Shown here one piece after another: positions 2,004-8,276 of a DNA stretch of 20,279 nucleotides. Positions within the stretch are counted from its first letter, which is position 1; each line of letters begins with the position of its first letter. The notes under the pieces are model-generated. The model saw only the letters and a program-made list of their open reading frames with translations. It had not been told where the DNA came from and did not search any database. Origin of the DNA: a virus; IMG/VR virus record IMGVR_UViG_3300009080_000076, positions 1-20,279 of that record, one strand, 5' to 3'. The translations under genes and the position numbers were made by a program.

Positions 2004-2579
2004 CTATTTCTCTCTAAAGTCCAAATCGTTGCCTTTACGATTATACCACATTTCAAATGTATCTGTTTTCCAGAGTGCTTGTCGATTATTACTTTTCTTA
2101 GGAGCCATGTTGTACCATATATTCCAATAGTATTCAGCACGTTCTTTATTGCCCATACGTTTATGATAAAAGAAGTTCATCCTAGGGTGTGTGTGTTCTT
2201 TTTTATTATCCCATTGTGCAGAATGACGATCTCTGTCTAACTGTCTATATAGTTCAGGATTATCTAAACGCCCTGTATACATGCCAGTCTTGTAGTTGGG
2301 ATTAGCTTTACCACCAAGTGAATTTCCATGTTCCTCAACTAGATTTGCAAACATTTTATTATTAACAACATCAAATTTTGCTGAGTAGTCTATACAAACC
2401 TTTTTAAAATTGTCTTGGTTGTCACTCTGGTAAAGTATTTCAGTTGTTACATTATTGCCGTGCATCTCTATGTGCCGGCGCCAATAAACACCAGATCCCT
2501 CATATTTGTATGGATTTCTAGTTGTTTGTCCAAGATACTTCATACCTGTAACATTATGTGTTTTAAGATATAAAATCAT
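2004..2579 (-). CDS. GIY-YIG-like homing-type endonuclease
   Basis: The protein has 191 residues. The first ~45 look like a GIY-YIG nuclease core of the T4 Seg type: a hydrophobic Leu-Tyr-Leu at 3-5 in place of GIY, Tyr-Leu-Gly at 15-17 in place of YIG, then Gly-Ser-Gly at 28-30, Arg34/Arg35 and an Asn-Leu-Val-Glu-Glu segment at 79-83 that could supply the metal-binding Glu. GGKANPNYKTG at 89-99 resembles the linker and DNA-binding region of such enzymes. In T4, free-standing Seg enzymes cut DNA and promote their own spread. Its start codon overlaps the stop of the UV endonuclease gene (TAATG), so translation is probably coupled. The GIY motif is degenerate, so activity is uncertain. Confidence 0.65.
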   Translation of the reverse strand: MILYLKTHNVTGMKYLGQTTRNPYKYEGSGVYWRRHIEMHGNNVTTEILYQSDNQDNFKKVCIDYSAKFDVVNNKMFANLVEEHGNSLGGKANPNYKTGMYTGRLDNPELYRQLDRDRHSAQWDNKKEHTHPRMNFFYHKRMGNKERAEYYWNIWYNMAPKKSNNRQALWKTDTFEMWYNRKGNDLDFREK

Positions 2580-3604
2580 TACATACTTTCTTCAAACGGA
2601 ATACTTGCCAAGTTTTTGCACTTTGCTTCTACCATAATGTCAAAGTCATTACGAAACGTGCTAGCCCATTCATTGACTGCCGTATTCCACATGTAGTCAC
2701 TGTGCGCTCGTAATTTTGCTTTCTTAAAGCCCTGTTCTAATAGTCTTTGGAAGTCAGGCTTTTGATCCATTGGATGATCAACCAGCAAGTCTTCACGACT
2801 GACGCTGTAGTGCATACTAGGACGTACACCACGCCAACTGTCAATAATACGTTTACAGCGATCGTCAGTTCTGTCAATGTATTCTCCTCCACTGTGACAC
2901 CAATGATGATGTATATCCAACACCAATGCAACATCGTTTTCTAGTTCTAGGCTAGCTTCGAGACCCCAGGCGTTTTCGTCGTTTTCAATAGTGATACAGT
3001 TTCGTGCTTCTGTAGACAGTCTTGGAAGGACGGCTTTGATACCGGCTGGACCTTGACGTCCTGAGATGTGGACGTTACACTTGAAGTCTTGCCACTTTTT
3101 ACCGTAACCCACCCACCTGATGATATCCGCATGATACTCGAACTCCTCTATACTTCTATTTACTATTTCTGGATTGTCACTTGCCAATACAGTAAATTGA
3201 CCAGGGTGCATACTCACACGCACATCAAGTTTACGTGCTAGCTCTCCCACTTGCGCCCAGCCTTTGGCTGCGGCATCTCGTACATCGCTCTGTTTGTAAA
3301 ACCAAGCCCAGTCATTGTGTGTATACGCAGGCATCATATTACTGCCCAATCGTACCATACGCTGACCTTGTGGTAAGTTACCCACATACTCAATCAGACG
3401 ATATGCATTTTGCCAGTTAGTATCCAAACAAAACCACAGTTTATCTTCTGCTACTGATTGCTTTTGATTGTTAAGCCATGTGATAGTAGTACTGCGTTCA
3501 CTGTAAGCACCTTGTACTTCTTTAAGTATTTTTGGCTTTTGTGTCTGGTCTGGGTGCATGTACTTGCATGCAAATCCTACACGCTGTACGTTTTGATTAA
3601 ACAT
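2579..3604 (-). CDS. uvdE: UV damage endonuclease (UvdE/UVDE family)
   Basis: This enzyme nicks DNA next to UV photoproducts (cyclobutane dimers and 6-4 products) and starts excision repair. The protein has 341 residues, near the usual length, and the TIM-barrel sequence carries the expected metal-site segments in order: Met-His-Pro at 132-134, Asn-Val-His at 177-179, Ile-Glu-Asn-Asp at 206-209, Leu-Asp-Ile-His-His-His at 229-234, Met-His-Tyr at 264-266, Ala-His-Ser-Asp at 300-303 and Val-Glu-Ala-Lys at 325-328. The frame is open up to 3778, but that extension lies within the previous gene and has unlikely composition. The ATG at 3604 overlaps that gene's stop and places the conserved RVGFACKYMH directly at the N-terminus. 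It sits in an early operon and would protect phage DNA in sunlit water. Confidence 0.9.
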   Translation of the reverse strand: MFNQNVQRVGFACKYMHPDQTQKPKILKEVQGAYSERSTTITWLNNQKQSVAEDKLWFCLDTNWQNAYRLIEYVGNLPQGQRMVRLGSNMMPAYTHNDWAWFYKQSDVRDAAAKGWAQVGELARKLDVRVSMHPGQFTVLASDNPEIVNRSIEEFEYHADIIRWVGYGKKWQDFKCNVHISGRQGPAGIKAVLPRLSTEARNCITIENDENAWGLEASLELENDVALVLDIHHHWCHSGGEYIDRTDDRCKRIIDSWRGVRPSMHYSVSREDLLVDHPMDQKPDFQRLLEQGFKKAKLRAHSDYMWNTAVNEWASTFRNDFDIMVEAKCKNLASIPFEESM

Positions 3605-3821
3605 ATGATTGCAACAAATTAGTAGTTTGTTTTGTAGTAAAGGTATGTGTAAATTTACTAGGGAAGTTTGCACGGATTGCTTGCTGTTGCTTGCGTGTAT
3701 AAGGCACAGCAATGAACGCATCTGAGCCGAATACTTGCTGTGCAAGTTGGTACTGCGATGCTGTAATTTTTTGTGCAAAGTTGAAAATAGTTAAACCGGG
3801 TTCTGTGACTAGATAATTCAT
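3597..3821 (-). CDS. Unknown 74-residue early protein
   Basis: I do not recognise this protein. It begins MNYLVTEPGLTIFNFAQKI, is basic in its C-terminal half (YTRKQQQAIRANF) and has no membrane segment. The start is firm: the minus strand has TTAGGAGA seven bases before the ATG, and a consensus sigma-70 promoter ends about 26 bases upstream. Its stop overlaps the start of uvdE by eight bases (ATGTTTAA), so the two are translationally linked. As the first gene behind a strong host-type promoter it is probably expressed early. Confidence 0.7.
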   Translation of the reverse strand: MNYLVTEPGLTIFNFAQKITASQYQLAQQVFGSDAFIAVPYTRKQQQAIRANFPSKFTHTFTTKQTTNLLQSYV

Positions 3822-3846
3822 AAGTGTCTCCTAACAATATACTACT

Positions 3847-4914: not shown

Positions 4915-5265
4915 TTATGCCCTTTTTCGTCTAATAATTACTGGCTCATCGTCTGCTTCAGCTTCAACTGGTGTCACTGATGTACTGCTTTTCTGAGTTG
5001 GCATACTGCCTGTTTGTGTTGTGTCTACTTGTACACCACTAAATTTACTGCTAGTACTGTTAACATATAATCCAAACCAAGCGGCGCCTGCGCCTACAAT
5101 TACACTTACTAGACCAGCTTGTTCCATAGTTGGTGCTGGTAGGTCCTGGAACCAAATTACTGTCTTATACAGTAGGTAAATGTACATTGTAATAAATGCT
5201 CTTGGGAATAGTCTCCATCTGCTAAAGTACTCCGGTGCTGTCCACCAAATACTGTTTGTGTTCAT
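4915..5265 (-). CDS. Putative holin-like small membrane protein
   Basis: The 116-residue protein has an aromatic, basic N-terminus (residues 5-22), one hydrophobic segment at about 22-41 and a second at about 50-69 separated by a short DLPAP turn, then a polar Ser/Thr-rich tail ending in RRKRA. Two short membrane segments with a charged tail is a common holin layout, and the second segment (VSVIVGAGAAWFGLY) resembles small proteins annotated as holins in marine phages. A holin would pore the inner membrane and start lysis, matching the spanin pair at 15198-15990. It has a strong site (AGGAGAG) and an ATAAATA late promoter at 5288-5295, fitting late expression. The assignment rests on topology, so another small membrane protein is possible. 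Confidence 0.55.
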   Translation of the reverse strand: MNTNSIWWTAPEYFSRWRLFPRAFITMYIYLLYKTVIWFQDLPAPTMEQAGLVSVIVGAGAAWFGLYVNSTSSKFSGVQVDTTQTGSMPTQKSSTSVTPVEAEADDEPVIIRRKRA

Positions 5266-5287
5266 AGTTTCTCTCCTCTACTAGGAG

Positions 5288-5295
5288 TATTTATC
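5288..5295 (-). promoter_or_regulatory. T4-type late promoter for the holin-like gene
   Basis: The minus strand reads GATAAATA followed by C, seven of eight bases of TATAAATA, about 22 bases before the start at 5265. It overlaps the stop codon of the upstream gene. Confidence 0.7.
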
Positions 5296-5980
5296 AAGTC
5301 TTTGTGACCAATGTTAAGTTTACAAACGCTGTCCATTTAATAGTTTTACCATTTTCGCCACTTACTCTAATACTTAAACAATCAGTTGCATCGTCTGCGG
5401 CTATCAGTGCATACCAAGAATTAATACTCTCGCCAATAATTTCTTCCACTGGATTAGTTAGTAGTGTTGTGCTTCCACTATCATTGGTAATTACACCACG
5501 TATAACATACCCTGCATGGTCATTGTTGTCTGCATCTCTCGCAATAAAACGAGCTTCCACTAATCCAGCGGTGTCAGTTGGTATATGAATCTGTCCAATT
5601 GCTGACCCTTGGTCTGTGGTTACTGCTATACTATCAATAGTAGTTGTGGTTGTGTCTATACCAAAACTTGAACTGGGGGATAATTCTGTTTCATTACCAT
5701 CAGTGGTCTCTCCCCATAATACATGACTAACATTTTTACTGGTGGCCATTGTACTGTTGTAAATGGTAAAGTTATCAATTGCATCATTGATATCAGTTTC
5801 AATTCTAGTCCATTCGTTGTTGTATACCCATACTGAGCCTTCACTGCCATGCTGTAGATACATGTCTCCGTTAACTGCTGATAATGCGGGGGTAATTGAC
5901 CCTTGGTATAAGGTAGGTCCAGCCTTCTGAATTTTAAAAGAAGGGTAGCTTGTGCCCTTCAGGTTCTGTGTTACTGCCAT
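5294..5980 (-). CDS. Fibre-like virion protein, 228 residues
   Basis: No exact family is recognised, but the composition is that of a phage beta-structured surface protein: rich in Thr, Ser, Asp, Gly and Val, with a Thr run (TTTTTI at about 110-115) and no Cys-rich or membrane segments. The segment about 36-57 (VNGDMYLQH ... WVYNNEW) has the same Gly-Asp-Met-Tyr and closing Trp pattern as the 563-residue fibre (VNGDMIYN ... SSW). The C-terminal ~100 residues read like a jelly-roll or beta-sandwich. The start is set by GGAG seven bases upstream of the ATG at 5980. A late promoter-like AATAAATA lies at 6052-6059. Probably a virion or host-range accessory protein. Confidence 0.6.
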   Translation of the reverse strand: MAVTQNLKGTSYPSFKIQKAGPTLYQGSITPALSAVNGDMYLQHGSEGSVWVYNNEWTRIETDINDAIDNFTIYNSTMATSKNVSHVLWGETTDGNETELSPSSSFGIDTTTTTIDSIAVTTDQGSAIGQIHIPTDTAGLVEARFIARDADNNDHAGYVIRGVITNDSGSTTLLTNPVEEIIGESINSWYALIAADDATDCLSIRVSGENGKTIKWTAFVNLTLVTKT

Positions 5981-6051
5981 TTTGTACTCCGTTCAGTGTT
6001 TCCACTGTCAGTCAACCTAAGGTTGCTGTCGATAAGTATCACTTATGTTTG

Positions 6052-6059
6052 TATTTATT
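6052..6059 (-). promoter_or_regulatory. T4-type late promoter for the 228-residue gene
   Basis: The minus strand reads AATAAATA then C. It starts just after the terminator at 6061-6088 and about 70 bases before the gene, which leaves a longer leader than the other late units. Confidence 0.55.
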
Positions 6060-6060
6060 A

Positions 6061-6088
6061 AAAAACAAAACCCACCAATGGTGGGCTT
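6061..6088 (-). terminator. Rho-independent terminator
   Basis: On the minus strand CCCACC, loop ATT, GGTGGG is followed by TTTTGTTTTT, a classic GC stem with a U tract. It closes the transcript that starts from the promoter at 6392-6420. Confidence 0.85.
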
Positions 6089-6386
6089 GTTATCTTGTCT
6101 ATTTGTATGTCTTATCTCCAGCCAAGTTCTTATCTAAAACTGGTCTGACTGTAATCCGATTACTGTCAAGTTTATAATAATGTGATAGGTTGGACTCTGT
6201 GAATACCAACAACCCTTCTGTAGAGCCACGCTCAAATCCGGGAACTTCATATTAAACAGTTACGTCTAAAAATACAACTTCGTATCTCTACGCTCTTGCA
6301 TTGCCACCACAGCTATGAATCAAGTTACGACCTCTACGGACCGCCATTCCTTGCACTATCTAACTTAGGATATCTCCTAACTTATG
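6068..6386 (-). ncRNA. Candidate ~320-nt non-coding RNA, or transcript of a broken gene
   Basis: This stretch has its own promoter (6392-6420) and a strong terminator (6061-6088) but no conventional gene. The predicted 5' end folds into a perfect hairpin (TTAGGA, loop GATA, TCCTAA; about 6361-6376). Further short inverted repeats include GAGC-GTG-GCTC (about 6227-6237) and a GGTTG/CAACC pair around 6188-6214. I do not find the marks of tmRNA (no tag ORF ending in Ala-Ala, no tRNA-like acceptor end), RNase P RNA, or tRNA. The alternative reading as a small interrupted protein gene is listed separately. The unit is placed between two virion genes that have late promoters, yet its own promoter is of host type. 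Confidence 0.4.
6099..6347 (-). pseudogene. 82-codon reading frame interrupted by in-frame TAG and TAA
   Basis: From an ATG at 6347 (preceded directly by AAGGA) one frame runs 82 codons to a TAG at 6101-6099, broken by TAG at codon 20 (6290-6288) and TAA at codon 32 (6254-6252). After the second stop, 50 codons are open and look protein-like, for example YEVPGFERGSTEG and VRPVLDKNLAGDKTYK. The segment between the stops reads RYEVVFLDVTV. By hand count about two thirds of codons begin with a purine, as in real genes. The frame ends 10-15 bases before the terminator, where a gene would end. It could be a decayed gene, a gene needing stop-codon readthrough, or chance within an RNA gene. No family is recognised. 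Confidence 0.35.
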
Positions 6387-6391
6387 TCTTT

Positions 6392-6420
6392 AATATAATA
6401 CATCCTAACACTAAAGTCAA
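6392..6420 (-). promoter_or_regulatory. Sigma-70-type promoter of the 6061-6386 unit
   Basis: The minus strand has TTGACT (6420-6415), a 17-base spacer and TATATT (6397-6392). An A-rich run and GGC directly precede the -35 box, the same AAAAAAAGGCTTGAC seen before the promoter at 19053-19081, suggesting an UP-like element. Confidence 0.7.
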
Positions 6421-6440
6421 GCCTTTTTTTAAAAAAAGTC

Positions 6441-6468
6441 AAAAAAATAGACGCACTAGGCGCCTATT
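6441..6468 (-). terminator. Rho-independent terminator after the 85-residue virion gene
   Basis: On the minus strand AATAGGCGC, loop CTAGT, GCGTCTATT is followed by TTTTT. It lies 24 bases after the stop at 6492 and insulates this gene from the next promoter. The plus strand also ends in TTTT, so it may work weakly both ways. Confidence 0.8.
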
Positions 6469-6491
6469 TTAATTTAACTAAAAATTACGTA

Positions 6492-6749
6492 TTATACGTT
6501 ATCTTTGAAGTCACAAACTGCTGTTACAGTGATAGCTGCAACTGTGCCTGCAACGTCAGCTGTCTGCTGAATTGCAAAGTGTACTGTTCCACCGTGTGCG
6601 CCGTCTGCGCCTGCTACTGTACCTGTTGCGCCGAAGCCTTCGATGATTGCGTCATACTCAGTCTGGTTTGCTACTGGTGCTGATACGATTTGTGTGCGTC
6701 CGCCAAGTCCGTTACCTGCTTGACCTTTTGCTGCTGTTGTTAAAGCCAT
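6492..6749 (-). CDS. Small Ala/Gly/Thr-rich protein, probably an abundant virion component
   Basis: The 85-residue protein is almost entirely Ala, Gly, Thr and Val, with one Cys (CDFKDNV at the end) and no membrane segment or signal peptide. I do not recognise a family. Context suggests high expression: it has its own late promoter (6795-6802), an excellent ribosome binding site (TAGGAGA seven bases before ATG), and its own strong terminator (6441-6468), so it is monocistronic in a block of fibre genes. Such an arrangement fits a decoration, fibre-tip or other multi-copy virion protein. That role is inferred from composition and layout only. Confidence 0.65.
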   Translation of the reverse strand: MALTTAAKGQAGNGLGGRTQIVSAPVANQTEYDAIIEGFGATGTVAGADGAHGGTVHFAIQQTADVAGTVAAITVTAVCDFKDNV

Positions 6750-6794
6750 AATAATTCTCCTAAAATATGGTTCTGCGCCTATTGCGCTTACTTT

Positions 6795-6802
6795 TATTTA
6801 TG
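6795..6802 (-). promoter_or_regulatory. T4-type late promoter for the 85-residue gene
   Basis: The minus strand reads CATAAATA, seven of eight bases of the T4 late consensus, about 46 bases before the ATG at 6749. Confidence 0.65.
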
Positions 6803-6824
6803 CTTTTTTATTAAAAAGCCTAGT

Positions 6825-8276
6825 TTAATCTAAAATGTATGTTAACATTACATATCCAGCACCACTGCCTGAGTTTGATACTGCTAAGATAGTTTGTGTA
6901 CTGTTTACATAATGATGCATTAGATCAATTTGATAAATTCCAACTACAGTTGGATCTATCTCATCTGCTGTTACTAATGCGTCTGGATCAGATGCATCTC
7001 CAACAATAATTGATGTTGATGCTTGATACGCTGATGTAATTGATACTTTTACACTTGTAACTCTTGCGTTTGCTGGTAAAGCTGCACCAATTGATACAGA
7101 ACTTGAATTAAATGCTACTTGTCTAGAAGCTTCTAAGCCTTTGAGTTCGGTTACATCTGTCCAAACATTAGCACCACTATTAGTGGTAATAACTTGTTGA
7201 TTGTCGCCTGTGCCTGTGCTGATCTTTGTAATAGGTAAAATACCTGATACACTGTTGGCTAAGTCAACTGTTCCGTAACTTAAGACACCGTTGGCGTCAA
7301 CACGTAATACAGTGTTGGCTGCACCAACGCTTAGTTCTGTAGTGGTGTTACTTGTTAAGTTACTAAGATATATACTCTGGTCAGCAAATGCACTGGCATC
7401 TGCACCAAAACCACCACGTGAACGTAGTAGTGTGTTTTGTGTAGCATCTGCTTCATTTAAACTGATTGCGCTCCAATTGGCTGTGCCGCCAGCGCCATCA
7501 CTTACTAATGATTGGTATTGTGTTGTGCTACTTTTAACCGACACATTGTCGTTGTCAATATGTGTGGTTGTTCCATCTGTTCTAACATATATTTTATTGC
7601 CGGATTTTCCAAGGCCGTCATCTGCATATATGCCAGTAACACGACTAAACTGTGCAAATAAAATGTCGTCTGTTTTTAGTACGGCTGTGGCTTTTGGTGA
7701 TGTTACAACCCATCCACTGTTTTCCCATACTGTACCGCCTATCACAAATACAAATGTACCGCCGCCGATTTCGTTTTGTGTTCCTGCTATATCATTGTCT
7801 GCGTCAGCTGAACGGGTTAGCTCACCTGCGGCAAATACAAATATACCATTACCAACTGCGTCAGCACCAGTAGCATCTTTAACTAATACACGGTCGTTAG
7901 TTGTTAGTGTTACACCGTCAATTACGCCGCCACTTAGTGTCCATTTATCATCATTAGTAATGTATGTTAAGTTTAACATATCATTAACTATGGGTCCTGA
8001 AACGTCACCGTCTATGTTTGTTGTTATTGTGTTTGTTGCCGCAACAACTGCTTCCTTGGGGTCAAGTCCTTGTGCTACGCTGTCAACATAAAATTTTGTA
8101 GCCGCATCGCTATCATTTACTGGTTCAGCAACTCGAGCATTAACTAAACTTGAGTCAGCTAAGTTGCGTACAAGAAATGCGTTCGCTGATTGGTCAAACT
8201 TAATACGTCCGTTGCCCTTGCCGAACTGAACGTTTTCGTATACACCTGCTAGCCCAAACTGTTTAATAAGTGCCAT
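6825..8276 (-). CDS. Fibre-like virion protein, 483 residues
   Basis: The N-terminus (MALIKQFGLAGV) followed by NARVAEPVNDSDAATKFYVDS at about 47-67 is typical of fibre proteins of T4-like phages; the Ala-Ala-Thr-Lys-x-Tyr-Val-Asp segment occurs before many fibre shafts and is probably helical. The middle (about 70-380) is repetitive, beta-rich and low in Cys. The last ~100 residues form a domain that is also found, diverged, at the end of the 459-residue protein encoded just upstream: compare SIIVGD with TLTVGD, and TADEIDPTVVGIY with TADENDLSEVGTY. Late promoter at 8302-8309 and AGGAG before the ATG support the start. Probable role is host attachment or a virion surface fibre. Confidence 0.75.
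   Translation of the reverse strand: MALIKQFGLAGVYENVQFGKGNGRIKFDQSANAFLVRNLADSSLVNARVAEPVNDSDAATKFYVDSVAQGLDPKEAVVAATNTITTNIDGDVSGPIVNDMLNLTYITNDDKWTLSGGVIDGVTLTTNDRVLVKDATGADAVGNGIFVFAAGELTRSADADNDIAGTQNEIGGGTFVFVIGGTVWENSGWVVTSPKATAVLKTDDILFAQFSRVTGIYADDGLGKSGNKIYVRTDGTTTHIDNDNVSVKSSTTQYQSLVSDGAGGTANWSAISLNEADATQNTLLRSRGGFGADASAFADQSIYLSNLTSNTTTELSVGAANTVLRVDANGVLSYGTVDLANSVSGILPITKISTGTGDNQQVITTNSGANVWTDVTELKGLEASRQVAFNSSSVSIGAALPANARVTSVKVSITSAYQASTSIIVGDASDPDALVTADEIDPTVVGIYQIDLMHHYVNSTQTILAVSNSGSGAGYVMLTYILD

Follow-up and report, generated by a model that had tools for sequence, protein, structure and literature searches.

A probable stand-alone RNA gene related to manA RNA in the virion gene block of T4-like phages

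Layout of the locus

In the stretch of viral DNA analysed here (20,279 nucleotides; hereafter the window), the minus strand at 6420-6060 carries a discrete unit in which a structured RNA is preceded by a sigma70-type promoter and followed by an intrinsic terminator; another terminator lies upstream. All elements named in the initial annotation were found in place. The upstream intrinsic terminator (6470-6444, minus strand; an 11-pair stem with 4 G-C pairs, followed by a T-rich tail) would shield the unit from the gene upstream (6749-6492), for which no PHROGs match was obtained. The promoter, TTGACT-17-TATATT, occupies 6420-6392 on the minus strand, and transcription is expected to start at about 6386-6384. 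It is followed on the same strand by a manA-like RNA body (6386-6183, 204 nt as aligned), by a 3' tail (6172-6089) and by the intrinsic terminator of the unit (6088-6068; a 9-pair stem with 5 G-C pairs), the T tract of which runs to 6060. The late-promoter-like motif ATAAATA of the next gene (5980-5294) lies at 6058-6052 on the minus strand, downstream of this terminator. Late-type motifs of the form [AT]TAAATA stand 78 nt before that gene and 52 nt before gene 6749-6492, in agreement with the earlier proposal that the neighbours of the unit use late elements. The window also encodes a UvdE-like UV endonuclease (2579-3778, minus strand; PF03851, E 9e-40).

Promoter-like sites in the interval 5000-8000 number 6 against 9.1 expected in shuffled sequences, so that a single match is not above chance, and host-type promoter sites scoring at least 10/12 occur 18 times on the minus strand and 5 times on the plus strand of the whole window, that of the unit not being unique. 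The promoter at 6420-6392 is not significant by itself and is accepted because it is conserved across the family. Terminator-like sites in the same interval are above chance (6 versus 1.7 expected in shuffles). Folded in isolation, 6388-6061 is only slightly more stable than shuffles (z -1.70), and the structural evidence for an RNA is that of covariation. The 3' tail, which is common to the loci L001-L005 and L014, folds better than shuffles, with a folding z of -3.22 for tail and terminator together (6178-6063, minus strand). This stretch may be a separate small RNA, since in L014 the tail directly follows the promoter.

Coding potential and related loci

The open frame at 6347-6099 (minus strand) spans 83 codons with two internal stops, TAG and TAA. 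A peptide search with its end found 17 IMG/VR loci, in the DNA of which nucleotides and stems are conserved but codons are not. A 20-base pattern located 77 IMG/VR stretches, which together with the window give 78 records and 36 distinct full-length RNAs (that of the window included); several of the 78 located copies behind these 36 RNAs are the same record found twice. The length and extent of the frame might suggest a protein gene that is broken, or that is read through at its two stop codons. Against this, the ATG is replaced by ACG in 22 of the 36 distinct sequences, lengths differ by single bases, one to seven in-frame stops are present in all 36, and the frame has no PHROGs family at E 0.001. 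The broken or recoded reading was rejected, we consider it almost certainly wrong, and the frame is treated as non-coding.

ARAGORN found no tRNA or tmRNA gene (0) in the window, and no Rfam family reached its gathering score; the next best hit after the manA family (RF01745) had an E-value of 0.51, the threshold being E <0.01. The unit had no match in our search of a phage collection and the whole window had none by megablast, while a type-2 RNA matched three records only, over 26 bases (E 0.6).

Secondary structure and covariation

A structure of 57 pairs was derived from the Rfam match and from visual inspection of the window, with the same 36 sequences in view on which it was tested. In these, 94.8% of cells are paired, as compared with 85.7% in shuffles and 31-41% when the structure is slid along the alignment. 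Changes on both sides were found in 25 of the 57 pairs (mean 15.8 in shuffles, none of 500 reaching 25), and the covariation score is 0.335 against 0.176 in shuffles and 0.036-0.085 when slid; because the sequences form about three types, these counts represent few independent events. One measure does not favour the structure, namely the number of further pair types, which is 41 as against 46.7 in shuffles and was reached by 500 of 500. The combination of compensatory changes with the lack of frame conservation is what the initial annotation had proposed to look for in relatives as the mark of an RNA gene.

All elements of the structure lie on the minus strand. The 5' hairpin P1, TTAGGAGATATCCTAA (6380-6365), is 99.1% paired, and 5 of its 6 pairs show double-sided changes. 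The closing pseudoknot joins GAUAG (6360-6356), invariant in the clade, to CUAUC (6188-6184), and is 100% paired. The interval 6353-6321 is taken up by the invariant P2 (CAAG:CUUG) and its inner hairpin P2b, in which 2 of 5 pairs have changed on both sides and 87.7% are paired. P3 (6319-6314 with 6251-6246; 100% paired, double-sided changes in 3 of 6 pairs) closes a junction domain at 6319-6246 that contains P4, P5/P5b and P6. Double-sided changes affect 4 of 7 pairs in P5, 2 of 4 in P5b and 2 of 6 in P6 (89.8% paired), and the P4 loop reads GUGGUG in the window and GURGUR in the clade (GUGGUG in 8 and GUAGUG in 24 of the 36 RNAs). P7 and P7b follow at 6242-6213; P7 is 99.1% paired and shows double-sided changes in all 3 of its pairs, and P7b is poorly supported (54.4% paired as aligned). 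The terminal P8 hairpin GUUGG:CCAAC (6210-6189) is 100% paired and has a double-sided change in 1 of 5 pairs. The RNA predicted from this unit has a complex fold of about 200 nt and a tail of about 120 nt.

Relationship to manA RNA

The earlier statement that the RNA belongs to no known class has to be corrected, as the Rfam search identifies it as a diverged relative of manA RNA, visible only with a covariance model. The RF01745 match covers 6380-6179 (minus strand) and model positions 1-192 of 192 with 43.5 bits (E 5e-10 for 481 nt searched); it lies below the gathering score of 55.2 bits and was found only at permissive thresholds. Among 20 long records of the clade, 10 match the model at 40.6-48.3 bits and none exceeds the cut-off, and no match was found in 14 control genomes. 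A reciprocal covariance model (R1), built from the 36 distinct RNAs of the clade alone, was run on 39 other sources that contain manA; it recovers the RNA where expected in 11 of them (E<=0.01; best 3e-9) and misses it in the remaining 28. A second R1 match in locus L163 (12697-12902, E 0.0013), within apparent coding sequence, was judged to be false, so that R1 E-values near 0.001 are unsafe.

Both RNAs possess a 5' hairpin, a five-pair closing pseudoknot, an internal-loop hairpin, a junction domain with a GUGGUG-like loop and a terminal GUUGG:CCAAC hairpin, with the same type of promoter at the same position. The pseudoknot strands were found together in 68 of 80 distinct cyanophage RNAs, the other 12 lacking the 5' motif used to locate the strand and being outside the pair counts; the pairing is GGGAG:CUCCC in 65 of the 68 and GGGUG:CACCC in 3, and in phage S-CREM1 it is GGAUG:CAUCC. 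Thus all five pairs are kept with different letters between the clade, the cyanophages and S-CREM1. The two differ in that the clade scores below 55.2 bits and occurs in a different phage group, and in that the unit is backed by a terminator and a late promoter, with no ORF directly behind it, whereas manA has been described as cis-regulatory. The potential 5' UTR position that characterises manA (Rfam type Cis-reg) does not apply in the window, where a terminator precedes the next ATG-ORF. On the strength of these sequence comparisons, we regard the RNA as belonging to a homologous but diverged sister group of manA RNA with a sub-threshold match, and we do not file it under RF01745 because the cut-off, when tested, was not reached. 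The comparisons further allow us to treat the unit as established to encode a conserved, non-coding, covarying manA homologue with a promoter and a terminator of its own.

Flanking signals in the clade of the window

Flanks were made distinct, copies cut by contig ends were dropped, and promoters were counted at a score of at least 10/12. All 49 distinct upstream regions have a promoter directly before the 5' hairpin, as against 0.8% of random positions, with the -10 box ending 11-12 nt before the first pair of the hairpin. Downstream, 34 of 39 distinct flanks have a terminator ahead of the next ATG-ORF by a fold-based rule (8.4% of random stretches have any terminator), two of the 34, L038 and L055, being doubtful with a late hairpin 108-129 nt downstream; none was detected in the other five (L020, L021, L036, L037 and L046). 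The ATG-ORF test is crude (an ATG and at least 30 codons) and probably overstates the number of leader-like cases. A stricter terminator rule, which gave 20 of 39 clade flanks, 9 of 75 cyanophage flanks and 2% in the control, missed hairpins with an A-rich foot pairing to the T run and was replaced by the fold-based one. A late motif occurs within 180 nt downstream in 34 of 39 flanks (6.1% in random sequence). The proposal of a stand-alone RNA gene in the virion block, non-coding and with compensatory base changes, is supported.

Upstream insulation is less regular. A terminator precedes the promoter in 16 of 41 upstream regions and a doubtful A/T-rich hairpin overlies it in 3 (9.8% in random sequence), and none was detected in 22 of the 41, so that read-through from upstream genes is possible. 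Among 75 instances having at least 300 nt of sequence upstream of the RNA, the capsid gene gp23 is found there within 1.5 kb in 63 and within 350 nt in 47; over 44 distinct upstream regions the corresponding figures are 37 and 28. A conserved RNA gene thus adjoins the capsid gene in many phages of the clade. In one of nine sources searched, a freshwater-2 RNA (RF02980; L006:3154-3237) was found in the leader of the gene behind the terminator of the RNA.

These flanks bear on the possibility that the RNA is a cis-regulatory, riboswitch-like leader which senses something and decides on passage of the terminator or on translation of the downstream ORF. Such a role would agree with the Rfam type Cis-reg and with the 5'-UTR positions given in the available text of Weinberg et al. 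(PMC2864571), who in 2010 included manA RNA with the riboswitch candidates. In the clade, however, the terminators and late motifs just described stand between the RNA and the next gene. Moreover, the 34 terminators have 20 distinct 5' arms, some differing by one base, and in a simple test of duplex energies on the 34 copies the arms did not pair with the RNA beyond expectation (mean z +0.21; single copies from -2.69 to +1.73). Differing arms without conserved pairing to the RNA give no support to a switch between terminator and aptamer. The RNA also sits before different genes. We consider a leader function unlikely, although it is the most serious of the alternatives.

manA copies in cyanophages

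Of 11 whole cyanophage records, 5 gave an RF01745 score above the cut-off, and the P-SSM4 RNA had DNA matches in 37 phage records. The RNA lies behind the capsid gene gp23 in P-HM1 and P-RSM4, behind pstS in P-SSM4 and between regA and purL in P-SSM2; it occupies 112740-112927 in P-HM1 and 142837-143034 in P-SSM2. A promoter scoring at least 10/12 stands right before it in 4 of the 5 isolates. The exception is S-CREM1 (OP535465, PMC9964418), the manA RNA of which matches RF01745 with 96.6 bits, has the third version of the pseudoknot and lies between tRNA-Leu and tRNA-Asn with no promoter right before it (best 6/12); a TTGACA-17-TATAAT site precedes tRNA-Met of the same tRNA array. An abiF RNA (L102:2032-2068) was noted about 100 nt behind manA in this array. 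Small hypothetical proteins have been annotated over the RNA in P-HM1 (PHM1_121; L112:1406-1582) and P-SSM4 (PSSM4_169.1; L113:1485-1658).

The IMG/VR cyanophage set comprises at least 120 loci (121 instances). The promoter, upstream and downstream counts were made on all 120, and earlier counts, including the distance to gp23 and the pseudoknot pairs, on 80 of the at least 120 loci. Among the matches listed, 96 of the 97 distinct regions keep the promoter. In 44 of 94 distinct upstream regions among these matches, a terminator hairpin spans the -35 box and has its T run in the promoter spacer; 3 regions have a terminator wholly upstream, and in 47 none was detected. Hairpins that contain the -35 box TTGACA occur in loci across L116-L235 (for example L160, L173 and L123) and in 3 of 4 isolates. 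The capsid gene gp23 is found within 1.5 kb upstream in 3 of 61 cases among the 80 loci.

The cyanophage group is mixed downstream. Of the 112 distinct flanks among the matches listed, 69 have, within 120 nt, an ATG-ORF that no terminator separates from the RNA (a gp32-like ORF in 23 cases), 29 have a terminator first, 11 have a tRNA that starts 4-18 nt behind the end of the RNA pattern, and 3 fall into none of these classes. Because 69 of the copies precede an ATG-ORF in this way, a leader role retains some plausibility in the cyanophages; the 11 copies with a tRNA right behind the RNA speak against it. A conserved hairpin GACCTAAGATGCAACT..AGTSGGGCAGA..GGTC followed by a T run (L162:4054-4085, minus strand, and 20 further loci; 21 of 262 loci in all) often lies close behind manA in cyanophage contigs, and its L162 copy has no credible Rfam match.

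Presence and absence of the RNA

The record of L014/L254 does not contain about 206 nt corresponding to 6378-6173 (minus strand) of the window, that is, nearly the whole RNA body, the ends being uncertain by a few bases. On either side it matches the window closely, with 97.6% identity along 2.27 kb upstream and 98.3% along 2.5 kb downstream. The model R1 finds nothing at this site, which keeps the -35 box of the promoter and the tail and has a different spacer and -10 box. The RNA is therefore not strictly required, since it is absent from a near-identical phage.

Such presence and absence between flanks of about 98% identity, together with the different genome positions of the RNA, would be expected of a selfish or hitch-hiking cassette of promoter and RNA that is kept by spreading and not by serving the phage. 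The strong structural constraint on the RNA argues the other way, as does the single copy per matching record in 15 of 15 records, and we find this explanation very improbable. One short contig (L186, 4.8 kb) has two manA copies (282-310 and 3804-3831).

Function of the RNA

The best explanation of the locus as a whole, to which we assign a probability of about 0.65, is that it is a small RNA gene of a marine T4-like, apparently jumbo, phage, homologous to manA, whose product is independently transcribed and probably acts in trans. Judging from the type of promoter, the host sigma70 RNA polymerase would transcribe the unit, probably early in infection. The regulation of phage or host messages that the initial annotation suggested is conjecture on the same ground. 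The terminator would release the RNA before the downstream gene, which appears to have its own late promoter, and for this reason action in trans is favoured over action as the leader of that gene. The most likely mode of action of the free RNA would be binding to a protein or complex of the host or of the phage.

The promoter and the RNA are fused in nearly every copy tested and the parts downstream vary, which would also suit a promoter-proximal device, with promoter plus RNA as the constant unit, influencing the polymerase or the stability of the transcript either as a 5' shield or as a put-like antiterminator (put is an antiterminator RNA type, named here for comparison). In most flanks of the clade, however, a terminator comes soon after the RNA and leaves little to stabilise or antiterminate, and we hold such a device to be improbable, more so than a cis-acting leader. 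Small stable RNAs with no assigned role, species C and D, are encoded among the tRNAs in the tRNA cluster of T4. As small RNAs of T4-like phages, they resemble the proposed RNA gene by general description only.

A broader reading, which we advance tentatively and at somewhat less than even odds, is that the whole manA family consists of independently transcribed, trans-acting phage RNAs and is not a riboswitch class. It would be a portable gene of promoter plus RNA, carried by at least two unlike T4-like groups (the cyanophages and, apparently, marine jumbo phages) and sited behind the capsid gene, in tRNA arrays or elsewhere; in the cyanophages, roughly every second copy would be shielded by a terminator that has the -35 box in its hairpin. 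As far as manA is given a role in the available text of the open-access literature (among PMC2864571, PMC9964418, PMC7657543, PMC7779021 and PMC10665884), it is that of a 5' UTR or cis-regulatory element. We found no description of a fixed promoter or of a stand-alone unit for manA in that text, nothing on manA RNA in the available text of PMC7029224, and no transcript data on manA in literature searches. Should manA prove to be an RNA gene in its own right, looking for a ligand that controls the next gene would be the wrong question, and transcript mapping, deletion and protein pull-down would be the right experiments, feasible in cultured manA-bearing cyanophages.

Phages of the clade

The clade belongs to T4-like phages, apparently of the jumbo type, and thus extends the manA family to another T4-like group. 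The Gp23 family (PF07068) was found in 9 of 12 long clade records, and gp23 of one clade record other than the window is 69-71% identical to that of Phosso, 2.275.O, SNUABM and BF, the records of which measure 349-469 kb; the dnaJ-clpA pair of the window recurs in PA5oct. The jumbo assignment is based on this likeness of gp23 and on the gene pair, the longest clade record listed being 200.8 kb. No manA-like RNA was found under stricter filters in the whole records of Phosso, 2.275.O, BF, XbC2 and PA5oct, or in about 5 kb around gp23 of Phosso, 2.275.O, BF and XbC2; the emptiness of these isolates carries little weight because the filters were stricter and the model of one run also missed known cyanophage copies. 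A scan of a genome collection returned 15 stretches, 5 of them with manA over the cut-off. A manA copy was observed in a 188 kb contig titled Nonlabens xiamenensis (L241, NZ_RMVE01000006.1) together with a PhotoRC-II RNA and one tRNA, and this contig is perhaps a cyanophage-like genome inside a bacterial assembly.
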